Shown here piece by piece: positions 20,942-61,623 of a DNA stretch of 64,000 nt. The notes below the pieces were generated by a model that saw only the letters and a list, made by a program, of their open reading frames with translations, had not been told where the DNA came from and made no database searches. Position 1 is the stretch's first letter. Each line of letters starts with the position of its first letter. The DNA is from Actinomadura citrea (GTDB lineage Bacteria; Actinomycetota; Actinomycetes; Streptosporangiales; Streptosporangiaceae). Position numbers and translations under genes: made by a program. The stretch is from the NCBI RefSeq assembly GCF_013409045.1, contig NZ_JACCBT010000001.1:682001-746000 (forward strand), in the 5' to 3' direction.

Positions 20942-22188
20942 TGCTGACCGCCGCCACCAGGGTCAAGAACCTCGTCTTCCTCGTCGTCGGCCTGCTGGCG
21001 ATGGGCTACGTCGGCCTCTCCTACGCCGACCTCGGCGGGTACGTCGGCTACCGCGACCACTACGTCGTGCGGGCCGACCTCGCCGAGGCGGGCGGCCTCG
21101 CGGAGAACGCCGACGTCACCTACCGGGGCACATCGGTCGGACGGGTCGGCGCGCTGCACCTGACCGGCGACGGCGTGCTGGCCGACCTGAAGATCAAGAA
21201 GTCGGCGCCGCGGGTTCCTGCACGCACGCAGGCCGTCGTCGCCAACCGGTCGGCGATCGGCGAGCAGTACATCGACCTCCGCCCCGCCACGTCCGCGGGG
21301 CCGTTCCTGGCGGGCGGCTCGGTGATCCCGCGCTCGTCCACGGCGACTCCGGCCCCGGTGACGGACCTGCTCACCAGCGTGAACGCGCTCGCCTCGTCCG
21401 TCCCCACCGACGCGCTGCGGACGGTCGTCGGGGAGCTGGGCCAGGCGTTCGCCGGGCAGGGACCCAACCTCCAGGTCCTGCTGGACGGCACGAGGTCGCT
21501 CTCCCGCGCCGCGAACGAGAACGCGGAGCCGACCATCTCGCTCATCGGCGATGGCGAGACCGTCCTGCGCACCCAGAACCAGGAGGCCGCGTCGTTGAAG
21601 GCGTTCGGCCGCAACGCGCGGCTCCTCTCCGAGCAGCTGCGCAAGTCCGACCCGGCCTTCCGGAAGCTGGTGGCGACGGCGCCGGGCGCGGCGGGCGAGT
21701 TCCGGACGCTGGTGCGCGACCTCGACCCGTCCCTCAGCGTCCTGGTCGCGAACCTGCTGACCACGTCCGAGCTGCTGGAACCCCGGGCGGACGGCCTGGA
21801 ACAGCTCCTGGCGAAGCTGCCCGCGGCCGTCTCCACCGGCATGTCGGTCGCCCAGGACGGCAGGCTCAACTTCGGGATGGTCACGACGTTCTTCAACCCG
21901 CCGGACTGCACGAGCGGCTACGGCGGCACGAAGTACCGCAACGGCCTCGACACCTCGCGCGGCCCGGCGCTCAACACCGCCGCCCACTGCGGCGCGCCGC
22001 CGTCGAGCGGCGTGAACGTGCGCGGCGCGGGAAACGCTCCGCGACGTCCGGTCCCGGCTCCGGCGCGGGCGGGCTCGGTGCTCTCCGCTGGTTCGCCCGC
22101 CCTTCCGGGCGCGCTCGCTCTGCCGGGCGTCGCGGACGGACCCGCCGGCATGGGCGGCCTGCTCGGCGTCGAGGGAGCAGGCGGATGA
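20941..22188 (+). CDS. mceF: MCE family protein, MceF position
   Basis: A 415-residue MCE protein, last of the six, with an N-terminal helix at residues 7-28 and the MCE core VTYRGTSVGRVGAL near 59-72. The C-terminal 90 residues are rich in Ala, Pro and Gly and carry Cys in NPPDCTSGYGG and AAHCGAPP. Its start shares one base with the MceE stop; its stop overlaps the first Mce-associated gene by four bases. Confidence 0.92.
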   Translation: MLTAATRVKNLVFLVVGLLAMGYVGLSYADLGGYVGYRDHYVVRADLAEAGGLAENADVTYRGTSVGRVGALHLTGDGVLADLKIKKSAPRVPARTQAVVANRSAIGEQYIDLRPATSAGPFLAGGSVIPRSSTATPAPVTDLLTSVNALASSVPTDALRTVVGELGQAFAGQGPNLQVLLDGTRSLSRAANENAEPTISLIGDGETVLRTQNQEAASLKAFGRNARLLSEQLRKSDPAFRKLVATAPGAAGEFRTLVRDLDPSLSVLVANLLTTSELLEPRADGLEQLLAKLPAAVSTGMSVAQDGRLNFGMVTTFFNPPDCTSGYGGTKYRNGLDTSRGPALNTAAHCGAPPSSGVNVRGAGNAPRRPVPAPARAGSVLSAGSPALPGALALPGVADGPAGMGGLLGVEGAGG

Positions 22189-55842: not shown

Positions 55843-56572
55843 CGCCAGGAGGAGGCCGCAGAGACCGCCGGGATCGGTGCGTCGGGCCGGCCGGGTCGGC
55901 CCGGCCGCCCGGCGCCTGCGCGGGTGGGTCACCGCGACGGTCCGGCGCTTCGGCCTGCCCATCGCGTTCGTGCTCGCCGGGTTCCTCGGCGGGCTCGGCT
56001 ACGCGGTGTTCGCGCCCACCACCTACACCGCGACGGCGTTCGTCCTGGTCGTGGAGGCCAGGCAGGGCCAGTCCGGCCCGGCGGCGGTCAGCTTCGCGCA
56101 GGCGTTCGGGCGGCTCGCGCCGCTCCCGGAGACCCTCGCCTACTCCTCGCTCCCGCTGCCGGACGGGGAGAACGGCTCCACCCGCGAGCACATCCAGGCG
56201 TCCACCTCGCCGGACACCCCGCTGATCAAGCTCGCGGGGAGCGGCCGGACGGCCGGCGACGCCGCCGCGTTCGCCAACGCCGCCGCCGACGCGCTCGTCC
56301 GGTACGGGACGTCCCACCGCTCCGACACCGGCGTCCGCGTCGCGCTGATGACGCTCGCCGAGCCGCCCGCCGCGCCGTCGTCGCCGAACCTGCCGCTCGG
56401 CGTCGCCGTCGGCACCGCGTCGGGGATCCTGCTCGCCGGGCTCGCCGCCGCCGTCATGAGCGGACGGCGCGAGCGGGCGGGCCGGCGGGAGAGGGGCCGC
56501 GTCCCCTCGGCGGGGGGCACGGCCGCCATCCCCGGTCCCGTCCCCACCGGACGGGTGGAGGTGGGCTCATGA
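55826..56572 (+). CDS. Wzz/chain-length-determinant-like membrane protein
   Basis: A 248-residue protein with a very basic cytoplasmic head (about 14 Arg in the first 40 residues), a first helix near 48-68 (FGLPIAFVLAGFLGGLGYAV), an outer domain typical of the Wzz family (FAPTTYTATAFVLVVEARQG), and a second helix near 195-212. The cytoplasmic tail is Arg-rich; no tyrosine-kinase domain follows. It should set chain length of the polymer. It begins 17 bases before the end of the preceding gene. Confidence 0.85.
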   Translation: MMQRRDARRRPQRPPGSVRRAGRVGPAARRLRGWVTATVRRFGLPIAFVLAGFLGGLGYAVFAPTTYTATAFVLVVEARQGQSGPAAVSFAQAFGRLAPLPETLAYSSLPLPDGENGSTREHIQASTSPDTPLIKLAGSGRTAGDAAAFANAAADALVRYGTSHRSDTGVRVALMTLAEPPAAPSSPNLPLGVAVGTASGILLAGLAAAVMSGRRERAGRRERGRVPSAGGTAAIPGPVPTGRVEVGS

Positions 56573-57753
56573 CCGTGACCGCGCCCTCACCACTGGCCGC
56601 CTCGCCGAGCGGCCACACCGAATGGTCTGCGGAGGTGCACCGGGACGAGCAGGCCCTCATCGCCCTGGCCGACGACCTGCGCGACCTCTACGACCGCAGC
56701 CCGGCCGCGACGCCCTTCCAGGCGTACGAGTGGATCAAGGCGTGGTGGGGCTGGTACGGGGCGCGCGGGCGGCTCCGCCTCGCCACCGTCCGGTGCCGCG
56801 GCCGGCTCGTCGCGGCGGCGCCGCTGGCGGCGGGCGTCCGGCACGGGTTCCCGGTGCTCGTCCCGATCGCCGCGGACCAGAGCGACTTCACCGACGTCCT
56901 CCTCGACCCGGACTACGCGGGCGGAGCCGTCCGGCACCTCGCCAGGGCCCTGCTGGACGAGCGCGGATGGTGCGCGCTCGACCTGCGGGAGGTCCGTCCC
57001 GGCTCGGCGGCGCACCTGGTGGCGGCGCAGTGGCCGCGCCGCGCGTGGCGGACGCCGTCCTCGGTGTGCCTCGAACTGCCCGCCGGCGGGGGCGCCGGTT
57101 TCGACACGGGCATCGACGCCGTCCTGGACCGGCTCCCGGGCCGCACCGCCGGGAAGATGCGCGCCAAGCTCCGCAAGATCGACGTGCGCGGCATCACGGC
57201 GGAGAGCGTTCCCGCGGACCGCGTCCCGGACGCCGTGCACGCGCTTCTCGACCTGCACGTCCGGCAGTGGCGGGGCCGCCCGATCAATCCCGAGCACACC
57301 CGCGGGCGGTTCCGCCGCCACCTCGCCGAGGCGGCGGCCGGGATGGTCCGCGACGGGCGCGCCGCCGTCCTGCAGTACCGGTGGGACGACCGGCTTGTCG
57401 CCAGCGACCTCGTCCTGATCGGGCACCGCCACGTCGGCGCCTACCTGTACGGCGCGCTTCCGGACCTGCGGTCCTGCGTGGACGTCTCGCTGATGATGCT
57501 GCGCGAGGACCTCGCCCTCGCCCGCGACCTGCAGCGCCAGGGCGTCAGCCTCCTGCGGGGGGACGAGCCGTACAAGCTGAAGTGGCGGCCGACGCCCGTC
57601 CGGAACGAGCGGATCATCCTCGGGCGGACCGCCTCGGCCGCCGCCTACGCCGGGCTCGCCCGGACCCGCGCGTACCTGGCGGAGCGGCGGCGCGGGGGAC
57701 CGGGAGCGCACGCCGGCCTGTCCGGGAGCGCGTCCCCGCTGCTCCATGACTGA
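56569..57753 (+). CDS. GNAT-fold acyltransferase of the CelD/FemAB-like (Acetyltransf_6) type
   Basis: A 394-residue cytosolic protein. The N-terminal half has FQAYEWIKAWWGWYGARGRL near residues 47-66, and the C-terminal half the GNAT-like core AAVLQYRWDDRLVASDLVLI then SCVDVSLMMLREDLALARD and DEPYKLKWRP near 340, all typical of BcsL/CelD acetyltransferases in polysaccharide clusters. Likely role: acylation of the repeat unit, opposing or complementing the deacetylase. It is joined to its neighbours by overlaps of four and eight bases. Confidence 0.85.
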   Translation: MTVTAPSPLAASPSGHTEWSAEVHRDEQALIALADDLRDLYDRSPAATPFQAYEWIKAWWGWYGARGRLRLATVRCRGRLVAAAPLAAGVRHGFPVLVPIAADQSDFTDVLLDPDYAGGAVRHLARALLDERGWCALDLREVRPGSAAHLVAAQWPRRAWRTPSSVCLELPAGGGAGFDTGIDAVLDRLPGRTAGKMRAKLRKIDVRGITAESVPADRVPDAVHALLDLHVRQWRGRPINPEHTRGRFRRHLAEAAAGMVRDGRAAVLQYRWDDRLVASDLVLIGHRHVGAYLYGALPDLRSCVDVSLMMLREDLALARDLQRQGVSLLRGDEPYKLKWRPTPVRNERIILGRTASAAAYAGLARTRAYLAERRRGGPGAHAGLSGSASPLLHD

Positions 57754-59206
57754 CCCGCGGGACGACACCGCGCTGCGGATCCTGCACGTGAGCCAGCCGA
57801 ACGCGGGCGGGGTCGCCGTCTACGTCGGGCAGGCGGCCGGCGACCAGCGCCGGCGCGGCTGGGAGGTGGCCGTCGCCTGCCCGCCGGGCGGCGACCTGCC
57901 CGAACGGTGCATGGCGGCGGGGGTGCCCTGGCTCAACTGGGACGCCGGGCGCGCCCCCGGCCCCCGCACCCTGCTGGAGGCGCTGAGCCTCCGCCGCCTG
58001 GTGAAGGGCTTCGCCCCGGACGTCGTGCACCTGCACTCCTCGAAGGCGGGCCTGGCCGGGCGGCTGCTGCGCCGCCCGCTCGGCACGCCCACGATCTTCC
58101 AGCCGCACGGCTGGTCGTGGCTCGCCGCCACCGGCCGGCTGGACACCCTCAGCCGCCTGTGGGAGCGCGCCGGAGCCCGGTGGAGCGACGCCCTGGTCTG
58201 CGTCGGGATCGGCGAGCTGCGCGAGGGCATGCGCGCGGGCGTGCGCGGGCCGTACCGGCTCGTCCGCAACGGCGTCGACCGGCGCCGGTTCACGCCCGCC
58301 GACGCCGACGCGCGCCTCGCCGCCCGGACCCGGCTCGGCCTGGAGGCGGCCGCGCCGCTCGCGGTGTGCGTCGGACGGCTGACCCGGCAGAAGGGTCAGG
58401 ACGTCCTGGTCGCGGCGTGGCCGGGCGTCACCGCGCGCTGCCCCTCCGCCCAGCTCGCCATCGTCGGCGACGGCGAGGACCTGGACCGGCTGCGCCGCGA
58501 GCGGGTGGCCGGGGTCCGGTTCGTCCCGGCGGTGGAGGACCCGCGGGACTGGCTCTCGGCGTCCAACCTCGTCGTGCTGCCGTCCCGGTGGGAGGGCCTG
58601 CCACTGACCGCGCTGGAGGCGCTGGCCACCGGGCGCCCCCTCGTCGGGACGGACATCCCGGGCATCACCGAGGTCGTCCGTCCGGGCCTGGGCGCGCTGG
58701 TGCCCATGGAGGACCCCGCGGCGCTCGCCGAGGAGATGGCCGGGCGGCTGCTGTTCCCCGGCATCGCCGAGCGGGAGGGGCGCGCGGCGGCCGCCGCGTC
58801 CGCCGCCTACGACATCGGCCGGACGGTGGCGCTCCTCGCGGCCGTCACCCGCGACGTCGCCGGGTTCGGGGAGACCCCCGCGGAGGCCCTGGTGGACGCG
58901 CGGGCGGTGGCGGGCGGCCCCGTCCACGGCGGCCTCGGTGGCGTCACCGGCTTGGCGGGCGGCCTGGAGGGCGGCCCGATCGACGAGGTGACGGACGGCG
59001 CCGCGGGTGAGGGCGCCGCCGGCGGGGTCGGCATGGGTGGGGTCGGTGCGGGTGCGGTCGGTGCGGAGGGCACCGGATCGGCCGATCCCGGGGCGGCCGG
59101 GGCCGCCGGGGCGGAGGCGGCCGGAGCGGAGGCGGCCGGTGTCGGGGTGAAGGGGCCCTTGCCCGGCGGTGGCGGGGCGGTCACGCCGCCGAACAGCTCC
59201 CGGTAG
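57746..59206 (+). CDS. GT4-family glycosyltransferase with long Gly/Ala tail
   Basis: Residues 1-375 form a complete GT-B enzyme: HVSQPNAGGVAVYVGQAAGD near 13-32, LVRNGVDRRRFTPAD, CVGRLTRQKGQDVLVAAWPG and LPSRWEGLPLTALEALATGR with the donor-site glutamates. The remaining 110 residues are Gly/Ala-rich low complexity and lie entirely opposite the coding sequence of the GH26 gene. The natural end may once have been near 58870; the extension probably exists because the opposite strand constrains the sequence. Confidence 0.88.
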   Translation: MTDPRDDTALRILHVSQPNAGGVAVYVGQAAGDQRRRGWEVAVACPPGGDLPERCMAAGVPWLNWDAGRAPGPRTLLEALSLRRLVKGFAPDVVHLHSSKAGLAGRLLRRPLGTPTIFQPHGWSWLAATGRLDTLSRLWERAGARWSDALVCVGIGELREGMRAGVRGPYRLVRNGVDRRRFTPADADARLAARTRLGLEAAAPLAVCVGRLTRQKGQDVLVAAWPGVTARCPSAQLAIVGDGEDLDRLRRERVAGVRFVPAVEDPRDWLSASNLVVLPSRWEGLPLTALEALATGRPLVGTDIPGITEVVRPGLGALVPMEDPAALAEEMAGRLLFPGIAEREGRAAAAASAAYDIGRTVALLAAVTRDVAGFGETPAEALVDARAVAGGPVHGGLGGVTGLAGGLEGGPIDEVTDGAAGEGAAGGVGMGGVGAGAVGAEGTGSADPGAAGAAGAEAAGAEAAGVGVKGPLPGGGGAVTPPNSSR

Positions 59207-60216
59207 GCGGCAGAGGAGCGCGGGTTGCCGCCGCCGCACGACCAGACCCCGTGCGGGCAGTAGTCGGTGATCGTCTGGTAGAGGACGTCGTGCGACATGA
59301 TCCAGTCGTGCATCCCCCGCACATAGGCGGGATTGTCGGAATTGCGAAACAAGCCCCATTCGGGAAACGAGAGGGGCTTGCCGTGCGCGGTCGCGAACTC
59401 CGCCTGCTCGCGCAGACCGTACGGCTCGTGGACGAAATCCTGGAACGACTTTCCCTCGGGTTGGTCATAACTGTCGGAACCGATGATGTCGACGACGTCG
59501 TCACCCGGATAGCAGTCCGTCCACGGGATCGCGTCCGGTCCCCGGTTCGGCGCGAAATCGAACCGGAAACGCGCGCCCCGCACCGCGCGCATGGTGCCGA
59601 CGATCCTGCGCCAATACGCCTTCCACGAGGACGGATCCGGGGCGCACCGCCCGGCGTAGACCTCCCCGTTCATCTCCCAGCCGAGGACGATGACCGTGTC
59701 GCGCGCGCCCAGGGAGACCAGCCGCCCGGCGAGCGTCCGGTAGTGGCGGTCGAACGTGCCGCGCGCGCCGGCGCGCAGCAGCGAGGCCAGCACCGGCGTG
59801 GGGAGCCCCGCCTCGTTCGGCGCCATCATCGGGACGTTGACCACGAGCATGCGGCGCTGGTCGGCGGCCTTCCAGTGCGCCCACGCGGCCAGCATCTCCC
59901 GGGGGCCCTCGATTCCCGGCCAGTCGTCACCCGGCAGGTAGGTGCGCCCGACCGTCACGGTCGAGCCCAGCCAGCGCTCGAAGCGGGCCACCCGGGCCAC
60001 GCCCTCCGGGCCCGACCCCAGAAACGCCCCCAACGGCACATGTGCCGTCCATCGGTGAATTGCCCGGGGCTGCTGCCACGTCACCAGAGCCGACGCCATG
60101 AGCGCGAACAGCACCACAGATGCAGCCAGAATAGGAGGGAGTGGACACCAGAACGGCGACCTTTTCCGCCGGGGTCCGGACGGTCGTCCTGCCGAATGGA
60201 TATCCGCAGCTCGCAT
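58807..60216 (-). CDS. Membrane-anchored GH26 glycoside hydrolase
   Basis: A 469-residue protein with a basic head, a helix at residues 28-47 and an outer GH26 domain. The acid/base is E181 in LGWEMNGEVY and the nucleophile E286 in SFPEWGLF, as in GH26 beta-mannanases and related enzymes. From residue 347 the protein is Pro/Ala/Thr-rich, and its last 135 codons overlap the glycosyltransferase gene on the other strand. It probably cuts or edits the polysaccharide made by this locus. Converging with the operon, it would be transcribed separately. Confidence 0.88.
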   Translation of the reverse strand: MRAADIHSAGRPSGPRRKRSPFWCPLPPILAASVVLFALMASALVTWQQPRAIHRWTAHVPLGAFLGSGPEGVARVARFERWLGSTVTVGRTYLPGDDWPGIEGPREMLAAWAHWKAADQRRMLVVNVPMMAPNEAGLPTPVLASLLRAGARGTFDRHYRTLAGRLVSLGARDTVIVLGWEMNGEVYAGRCAPDPSSWKAYWRRIVGTMRAVRGARFRFDFAPNRGPDAIPWTDCYPGDDVVDIIGSDSYDQPEGKSFQDFVHEPYGLREQAEFATAHGKPLSFPEWGLFRNSDNPAYVRGMHDWIMSHDVLYQTITDYCPHGVWSCGGGNPRSSAAYRELFGGVTAPPPPGKGPFTPTPAASAPAASAPAAPAAPGSADPVPSAPTAPAPTPPMPTPPAAPSPAAPSVTSSIGPPSRPPAKPVTPPRPPWTGPPATARASTRASAGVSPNPATSRVTAARSATVRPMS

Positions 60217-60294
60217 GCGTATCGTATGCCCTTAGAAGCCCACCGCGAAAAAGCCGGGCGGGCGGAAAATGTGAAAATTTACCGTGAGGAAGGG

Positions 60295-61623
60295 ATGCCG
60301 TGCGCCGCGATACGAGGGAATGGGTCTGAACGAATGTTCTTCGACAGCCGGCCGCGGGCCACCCGGTCCCGCAACGTGCGCCTCGACCCGGGCCTTCCCG
60401 TCCTGCTGCTGCGCACCGACCGCAACCTCTTCCACCACGGCACCCTGGCGGTGATCCGCAGCCTCGGCCGCGCCGGGGTCCCCGTGCACGCGATCCTCGA
60501 AGGGCGCGACAACCCCTCGTCCCGCTCCCGCTACCTGTACCGGGGGCACCCCTGGGGCCCGCCCGCCGAACGGGCGGACGAGCTGCTGCTCCACCTGCGG
60601 ACCATCGCCGAGCGCATCGGCCGACCCGCGCTCCTCGTCCCGATGGACGACGCGGGAGCGATCTTCGTCGCCGAGCACGCGGACGGTCTCCAACCCCACT
60701 TCGTCTTCCCCCGCCAGGACCCCGGCGTCCCCCGCGGCGTCGCCGACAAGGCCCGGCTGCTGGAGGCGTGCCACCGGCACGGCGTCCCGTGCCCGCCGAG
60801 CCTGACGCCGGAGTCGGCCGCCGACGTCGACGAGGCCGCCGCCGCGCTCGGGCTGCCGCTGATCGCGAAATGGGCGCGGCCGTGGCGGCTGCGCCCCGGG
60901 CTGCGCAGCACCACGCTGGTGCCCACGCTCGGCGAACTGCACCGGCTGTTCGCCGCCACGCGCGACCGTCACCCGGACGGCGGCGCGGGCCCGCTCATCC
61001 TGCAGCGGCGCATCCCGCCCGCGGGCGGCGACTGGTTCTTCCAGGGCTACTTCGACGACAACGGCGACTGCCTGTTCGGCGGAACCGGCCGCAAGCACCT
61101 CGCGCACCCGCCGCAGGCCGGGCACACGGTCGCGGGGGAGTGGGTCGCCAACCCCGACCTCGAACGCCTCGCGGTCCGCATCGTCGACCTGCTCGGTTGC
61201 CGCGGGCTCGTCGACCTCGACTTCCGGTTCGACGCGGCCGGCGGCGTCCACCACCTGCTGGACTTCAACCCCCGCATCGGGGCGCAGTTCCGGCTGTTCA
61301 CCGACCGGGACGGCCTCGACCTCGCGCGCGTCCTGCACCTGCACCAGTCGGGCCGGCCCGTCCCGGACGCGCGCCCCGCGCCCGGCCGCAACCTGCTCGT
61401 GGAGAACCACTACCTCGCGCGGTCGGCCCGGCGCCCGCGCCACGGAACGCCTTCGCGTCCCGCATCGCCGCGGCTTCCGCGGCTGCGCCCGCTGCGGGAG
61501 ACCCTCCGCCCGCTGCGGGCGGCCGACGAGTTCGCCTGGTACGCGGGCGACGACCTGCCGCCCTTCCTAGCCATGGGGCGGCGCAGCGCGCTCCGCGCCG
61601 TGGAGCGGCTCCGCACCAGGTAA
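60295..61623 (+). CDS. ATP-grasp carboxylate-amine ligase-like protein
   Basis: A 442-residue protein. The N-terminal domain has GLPVLLLRTDRNLFHHGTLA and RSLGRAGVPVHAI; ATP-grasp elements follow (GLPLIAKWARPW near 200, LILQRRIPPAGGDWFFQGYF near 250, LVDLDFRFDAAGGVHHLLDF then NPRIGAQFRLF near 325). ATG 60295 is chosen because GAGGAAGGG lies directly upstream; ATG 60334 is an alternative. Relatives in glycan loci are thought to form amide bonds, perhaps with sugar acids. Divergent from the GH26 gene by 78 bp. Confidence 0.85.
   Translation: MPCAAIRGNGSERMFFDSRPRATRSRNVRLDPGLPVLLLRTDRNLFHHGTLAVIRSLGRAGVPVHAILEGRDNPSSRSRYLYRGHPWGPPAERADELLLHLRTIAERIGRPALLVPMDDAGAIFVAEHADGLQPHFVFPRQDPGVPRGVADKARLLEACHRHGVPCPPSLTPESAADVDEAAAALGLPLIAKWARPWRLRPGLRSTTLVPTLGELHRLFAATRDRHPDGGAGPLILQRRIPPAGGDWFFQGYFDDNGDCLFGGTGRKHLAHPPQAGHTVAGEWVANPDLERLAVRIVDLLGCRGLVDLDFRFDAAGGVHHLLDFNPRIGAQFRLFTDRDGLDLARVLHLHQSGRPVPDARPAPGRNLLVENHYLARSARRPRHGTPSRPASPRLPRLRPLRETLRPLRAADEFAWYAGDDLPPFLAMGRRSALRAVERLRTR

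Follow-up and report, generated by a model that had tools for sequence, protein, structure and literature searches.

A glycosyltransferase gene (GT) and a glycosidase gene (GH) of Actinomadura citrea, which belongs to a group of soil bacteria, converge within the 64,000-nucleotide stretch of DNA analysed here (the window), and their coding sequences run into one another tail to tail. The best explanation is that this is a real and conserved convergent overlap, which would have arisen by mutual read-through of the two genes and been stabilised by their codon register and by base composition; we put the probability of this reading at roughly 0.7. The evidence comes from the conservation and phase of the overlap among relatives, from the codons opposite the two stops, and from what becomes of each tail where its partner is missing.

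The gene pair and its neighbourhood

The ORF list places the segment common to GT on the plus strand and GH on the minus strand at 58807–59206, exactly 400 bp, and so bears out the preliminary description, which had proposed a 400-bp antisense coding overlap between a glycosyltransferase and a GH26 glycosidase (Table 1). To judge by their homologs, both ORFs are real genes. GT matches the profiles of both Rossmann-type GT4 domains (PF13692, E 8.5e-33, and PF13579), and GH matches the GH26 profile PF02156 (E 1e-6), a solved mannanase by sequence (4yn5, E 7e-8) and, through its predicted model, GH26 lichenase structures (Foldseek, 2bv9, E 2.7e-11, TM-score by target 0.76). Two GH glutamates, E181 in the motif WEMNG and E286 in PEWG, are invariant in all 25 rows compared, consistent with the catalytic pair expected of a GH26 enzyme; we take them to be the acid/base and the nucleophile respectively.

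Table 1. Coordinates of the overlapping genes, their parts and their neighbours in the window
Feature	Position	Strand	Remarks
GNAT-fold (PF13480) gene	56536..57753	+	upstream of GT, same polysaccharide cluster
GT4 family glycosyltransferase ORF (GT)	57746..59206	+	486 aa; folded ~residues 10–384
GT C-terminal tail, disordered, Gly/Ala/Val-rich	58898..59203	+	residues 385–486; pLDDT ~28–48; antisense to GH tail; missing in GH-less relatives
GT stop TAG	59204..59206	+	opposite GH dicodon GCC TAC (Ala-Tyr338 of AAYRELFGG)
GH26-fold glycosidase ORF (GH)	58807..60216	-	469 aa; N-terminal membrane-type helix 28–47, catalytic domain ~60–347, disordered Pro/Ala/Ser/Thr tail 348–469
Hypervariable middle of GH tail	58918..59178	-	87 codons in window; between-species length changes in steps of three
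Last GH codons	58807..58917	-	antisense to conserved GT C-terminal helix and to ..EALVDARAVAGG
GH stop TAG	58807..58809	-	opposite GT dicodon GCC TAC (Ala-Tyr355 of AAYDIG)
Next gene	60334..61623	+	ATP-grasp-like by eye; Pfam: no match; NCBIfam: weak match below cut-off

In the predicted models, GT is confident up to about residue 384 (position 58897) and disordered from there to its end, and GH consists of the N-terminal helix, a barrel up to about residue 347 and, behind it, a disordered tail. Some 90 bp of the folded part of GT would therefore lie opposite the GH tail, in keeping with the earlier claim that the end of the glycosidase covers the last glycosyltransferase helices, and the remainder of the overlap is predicted to be disordered in both proteins.

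The surrounding genes, encoding a sugar transferase, Wzy_C, a MurJ-like protein, a polysaccharide deacetylase and Wzz, fit a polysaccharide cluster. The plus-strand gene that comes after GH in window order is conserved and stays near GT throughout the genus, and it directly follows GT where GH has been lost. At the 5' end of GH (window 60040–60280) third-position G+C is low, at about 0.57–0.65 compared with 0.95 further in. A second convergent ORF overlap, of 218 bp and in a different register, occurs at 21971–22188; its ORFs are putative, having been called by a crude gene finder.

Conservation among relatives

A first scan of genome contigs gave 56 loci. Among 65 Actinomadura genomes searched, including that of the window, GT was found in 58 and GH in 51, and when the window was taken together with 60 fetched regions, both cores lay on one contig in 48. 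The preliminary description had recommended comparing stop positions in related loci, and this comparison went in its favour: the distance between the cores (63–909 bp) is divisible by three in 47 of the 48 Actinomadura loci; every long overlap (38/38) has a length of 1 mod 3; and in the window's clade (42 rows, support 97*) all 36 pairs that are intact on a single contig overlap by 148–760 bp (median 287.5) with 34 distinct spacings. The other six rows of the clade have no GH beside GT, one of them at a contig end. By comparison with these orthologs, in which more than 60 bp are kept, the overlap is a true long convergent one and not a frameshift or a lost stop in one assembly. So far as sequence can tell, the in-frame changes in length show that at least one frame, be it that of GT or that of GH, is translated.

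Some of these counts include imperfect loci. L155, in which the GT match is weak and the cores are out of phase, is outside the overlap tallies and inside the count of 47/48; L119, L139, L142, L150, L153, L154 and L156 lie at or near contig ends, with L142, L150 and L153 still counted; and L143, in which the GT match is split, is counted among both the 36 and the 38. Either decay or assembly error could account for the out-of-frame core distance and Arg-rich GH tail of L155 (genome G080) and for the split match of L143 (genome G015; L017 in the first scan).

Lineages without GH are nested within the overlap clade. The tree requires five changes of the 'long' state, at least three of them forced by starred branches, so that long overlaps have been gained or lost more than once in Actinomadura. 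On the deep branches of the genus the genes meet in 4-bp overlaps, all five loci having either CTAG (three) or CTAA (two). In Nonomuraea, L021 and L045 have no overlap and L033 has one of 49 bp; the overlap of 250 bp in L029 (Nonomuraea jabiensis), where the GT frame enters the GH core, is apparently a separate one.

Codon register and borrowed stops

It follows from the coordinates that position 1 of a GT codon faces position 2 of a GH codon, position 2 faces position 1, and position 3 faces position 3. NCN codons (Pro/Ala/Ser/Thr) are consequently read antisense as GNN (Gly/Ala/Val/Asp/Glu). The mirror-image tails of the preliminary description are thus real and a consequence of register; since these two sets of residues are images of one another, the mirrored tails amount to one fact and not two. 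For a stop to appear in one frame, the other strand must have YTA (Y, pyrimidine) or TCA spanning the boundary between two codons, and because third positions face one another in G+C-rich DNA such a stop nearly always falls opposite a Tyr codon whose preceding codon has C as its last base.

The GT stop lies opposite xxC TAC (Tyr) of GH in 36 of the 38 long overlaps, the two others (L110 and L137) using TGA. The GH stop coincides with the corresponding GT codon in 29 of the 31 pairs with Tyr at that place versus none of the seven with Phe, although all these counts come from related rows and so are not independent trials. Where GT has Phe, GH either runs on for some 90–110 codons (L109, L116 and L140) or stops earlier (L129, L130, L137 and L153). 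As far as these alignments go, the stops are mutually borrowed, each gene ending only thanks to a Tyr codon in its partner.

An open antisense frame is in itself to be expected. In 32 GH-type tails that overlap no GT (from seven of eight Actinomadura loci tried, plus 25 tails selected among those of the first scan, with loci whose tails were truncated or very short left aside), the overlap register has 11 antisense stops in 3316 codons and the other two registers have 19 and 46, so that openness alone is not beyond chance; it is the conservation of the overlap and its in-frame length changes that are. Shuffling of codon order in 35 loci (L143, L137 and L140 having been dropped) gives an expectation of 1.72 stops in the GT frame and 3.06 in the GH frame, and the real sequences have one in each; the GT result means that selection for openness of that frame need not be invoked. 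By mere ORF calling, long ORF overlaps are not rare in this genome: the crude gene finder, applied to 864 kb (four 200-kb stretches and the window), returned 139 convergent pairs, 18 of them overlapping by at least 150 bp. This serves as a loose upper bound, since most of the longest have weakly scored partners, lie in a different register and are probably spurious.

Which tail is ancestral

Most likely, the disordered Pro/Ala/Ser/Thr-rich tail of GH is a linker of ancestral origin, of which the Gly-rich GT tail gives the antisense reading. In nine genomes that have GT and lack GH, the next gene begins 12–269 bp past the GT stop and the Gly-rich tail is absent throughout; these proteins end 5–104 residues past the core, the five from the clade at 28–53 residues and with unrelated sequence, the other four at 5–104. 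Beyond 25 residues past the core, glycine makes up 5% of 124 residues in GTs without GH alongside and 32% of 2371 residues in overlapping GTs. GH homologs that no GT overlaps carry tails rich in Pro, Ala, Ser and Thr. Two loci, L117 and L118, depart from this composition: Ser, Lys and His (SSKHGSSKHG-like) take the place of Pro and Ala as the prevailing residues of the GH tail, and the GT tail is accordingly rich in Asp, Phe and Cys.

Substitutions in the middle region, counted on DNA alignments of 12 pairs, number 86, 50 and 116 at GH positions 1, 2 and 3, the asymmetry between the first two being confounded by the fixed C at position 2. This phase pattern differs from that of the GT core (Fisher p 0.0003) and not from that of the GH core (p 0.15). 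The phase test had originally used a GH-frame alignment, and was repeated on DNA alignments with core controls; the tests of phase and codon usage draw on selected pairs (8 or 12) or on 17 of the loci, and not on the full 38. Gap lengths in the DNA alignments are multiples of three in only 45 of 77 cases, and as we ascribe the others to ambiguous placement in repeats, core-to-core distance was used instead.

The last GH codons are conserved because of GT, with GH as the passive partner there: over the final 21 codons, opposite the GT helix, codon usage speaks for the GT frame at every one of 17 loci, and several GH genes end before the stretch that faces it. Each gene seems to own its proximal part, and its last stretch to be an image of the partner.

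Origin of the overlap and alternative explanations

Under mutual read-through, GH would have started with an old disordered Pro/Ala/Ser/Thr-rich linker behind its catalytic domain, of which there is partial evidence because GH homologs without an adjoining GT carry it too. The deep branches suggest an ancestral junction of 4 bp, for instance CTAG or CTAA; since such a tetramer serves as stop for both genes at once, one mutation could remove both stops and open both frames. Every long overlap stands in the register set by the CTAG tetramer. GT would have gained its tail on losing its own stop. Each frame would then have continued until a pyrimidine-TAC in the partner's conserved domain supplied TAG, GH Tyr338 ending GT and GT Tyr355 ending GH, as present-day loci display. 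Where the GT Tyr changed to Phe, the GH stop at that site would have been lost, leaving GH either extended or with a stop of its own upstream, and both outcomes are seen. The Gly-rich GT tail would be a tolerated antisense image without a function of its own, a step supported by its disappearance upon deletion of the GH gene. Once read-through was tolerated, new stops would probably have been rare, because the linker has no tyrosine.

Several observations count against this account. Taken over all loci, synonymous codon usage in the middle region gives the GH frame no advantage (-0.028 per codon for GH versus -0.038 for GT, the GT frame scoring better in 12 of 17 loci); GH is favoured in the window and in three near relatives. 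The proposed 4-bp ancestor is weakened by poor resolution close to the root of the overlap clade, some of whose sister lineages overlap too. Finally, among members with the overlap, separate ends have returned nowhere except where GH was lost, as would also be expected of a selected function.

That last point bears on an explanation which we consider unlikely, namely that the overlap was itself selected: complementary 3' ends of the GT and GH mRNAs, or operon read-through across GH, would let one transcript repress or stabilise the other, as a coding version of a cutoRNA or of a noncontiguous operon that keeps glycan synthesis and glycan cutting apart. The order GT (+), GH (-), next gene (+) is conserved genus-wide, the clade loses the overlap solely together with the GH gene, and a promoter and terminator scan of 58400–60500 gave no convincing intrinsic terminator; cutoRNAs are, moreover, described as common in Streptomyces and noncontiguous operons as occurring in S. 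aureus in excerpts of PMC3765725 and PMC7154746. Against selection stand the wide range of overlap lengths and the hypervariable middle, the fact that antisense RNA has no need of a coding overlap, and a GT frame no more open than codon composition yields. Antisense regulation between GT and GH is nevertheless possible, since the gene order fits these published arrangements. A little less probable again is a pair interlocked in both respects, in which translation ends within the partner's conserved codons would couple the evolution of the two genes and the coding double-stranded RNA overlap would mediate mutual regulation of operon and glycosidase; a change of Tyr to Phe in the transferase would then lengthen the glycosidase. 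The evidence leans towards passive origin and away from a switch, because the GT tail is gone where GH is gone, its composition follows that of the GH tail, and the frame is as open as composition predicts.

It is improbable that the roles of the tails are reversed, the Gly-rich GT tail being the functional, selected frame and the Pro-rich GH tail its passive image. The slight preference of middle-region codon usage for the GT frame and a conserved ..DxRAVAGG stretch in that frame speak for it, but this arrangement is disfavoured by the 32 Pro/Ala/Ser/Thr tails on GH homologs without an overlapping GT and by the missing Gly-rich tail in 9/9 GH-less GTs; the altered GT tails of L117 and L118 and a substitution phase unlike that of the GT core also tell against it. 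Least credible of all is a sequencing or frame error, or a spurious ORF, that would make one tail an artefact of the window. Its very high G+C and the presence of long spurious antisense ORFs invite the suspicion, which the relatives rule out: 36 clade members from separate assemblies share the same layout, all in phase, the sole out-of-phase locus being L155 and the sole genome with a split GT match being G015.

Significance and comparison with known systems

Long overlaps in databases are often misannotations; the overlap described here can be traced through a genus and comes with natural controls: lineages that have lost one partner, lineages with Phe in place of Tyr where the stop falls, and branches in which 4 bp overlap. 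It illustrates how high G+C, codon register and low-complexity linkers together can lock two convergent genes to one another, and it carries a warning that what looks like a Gly-rich tail may be no more than a neighbouring gene's Pro-rich linker read antisense. Should the RNAs interact, the pair would provide a compact make-versus-cut control within a polysaccharide cluster.

Our literature searches listed no paper on this pair or on the reciprocal borrowing of stops, and the comparisons below draw on excerpts. The pair resembles a noncontiguous operon (PMC7154746), or an excludon, in that GH lies on the opposite strand inside a co-oriented run and its deletion leaves the neighbours contiguous in nine relatives; the likeness is one of gene layout, co-transcription across GH being hypothetical here. 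As in Streptomyces cutoRNAs (PMC3765725), the 3' ends of the convergent GT and GH mRNAs would be complementary, but cutoRNAs are untranslated 3' overlaps, whereas this overlap would itself be coding on both strands. The 4-bp convergent overlaps CTAG, CTAA, TTAG and TTAA and the phase (123:213) reported in PMC2174442 are matched exactly by the five deeper-branch loci, and all the long overlaps stand in the register that such a tetramer sets; unlike those overlaps, the long form has lost the tetramer in which the stops coincide, and each of its stops comes from a conserved codon of the partner gene. Palleja et al. (2008; PMC2478687) regarded 54 of 178 convergent overlaps longer than 60 bp as possibly real, mostly in very close species, and found convergence to be the only orientation allowing some true long overlaps. 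The GT/GH overlap is of this kind, being convergent, longer than 60 bp and produced by 3' extension after stop loss, but it differs in being kept in 36/36 pairs of a clade in which GT identity falls to about 70%, and in that both genes are extended. It is ordinary in kind, and unusual in its length, conservation, spread and natural controls.
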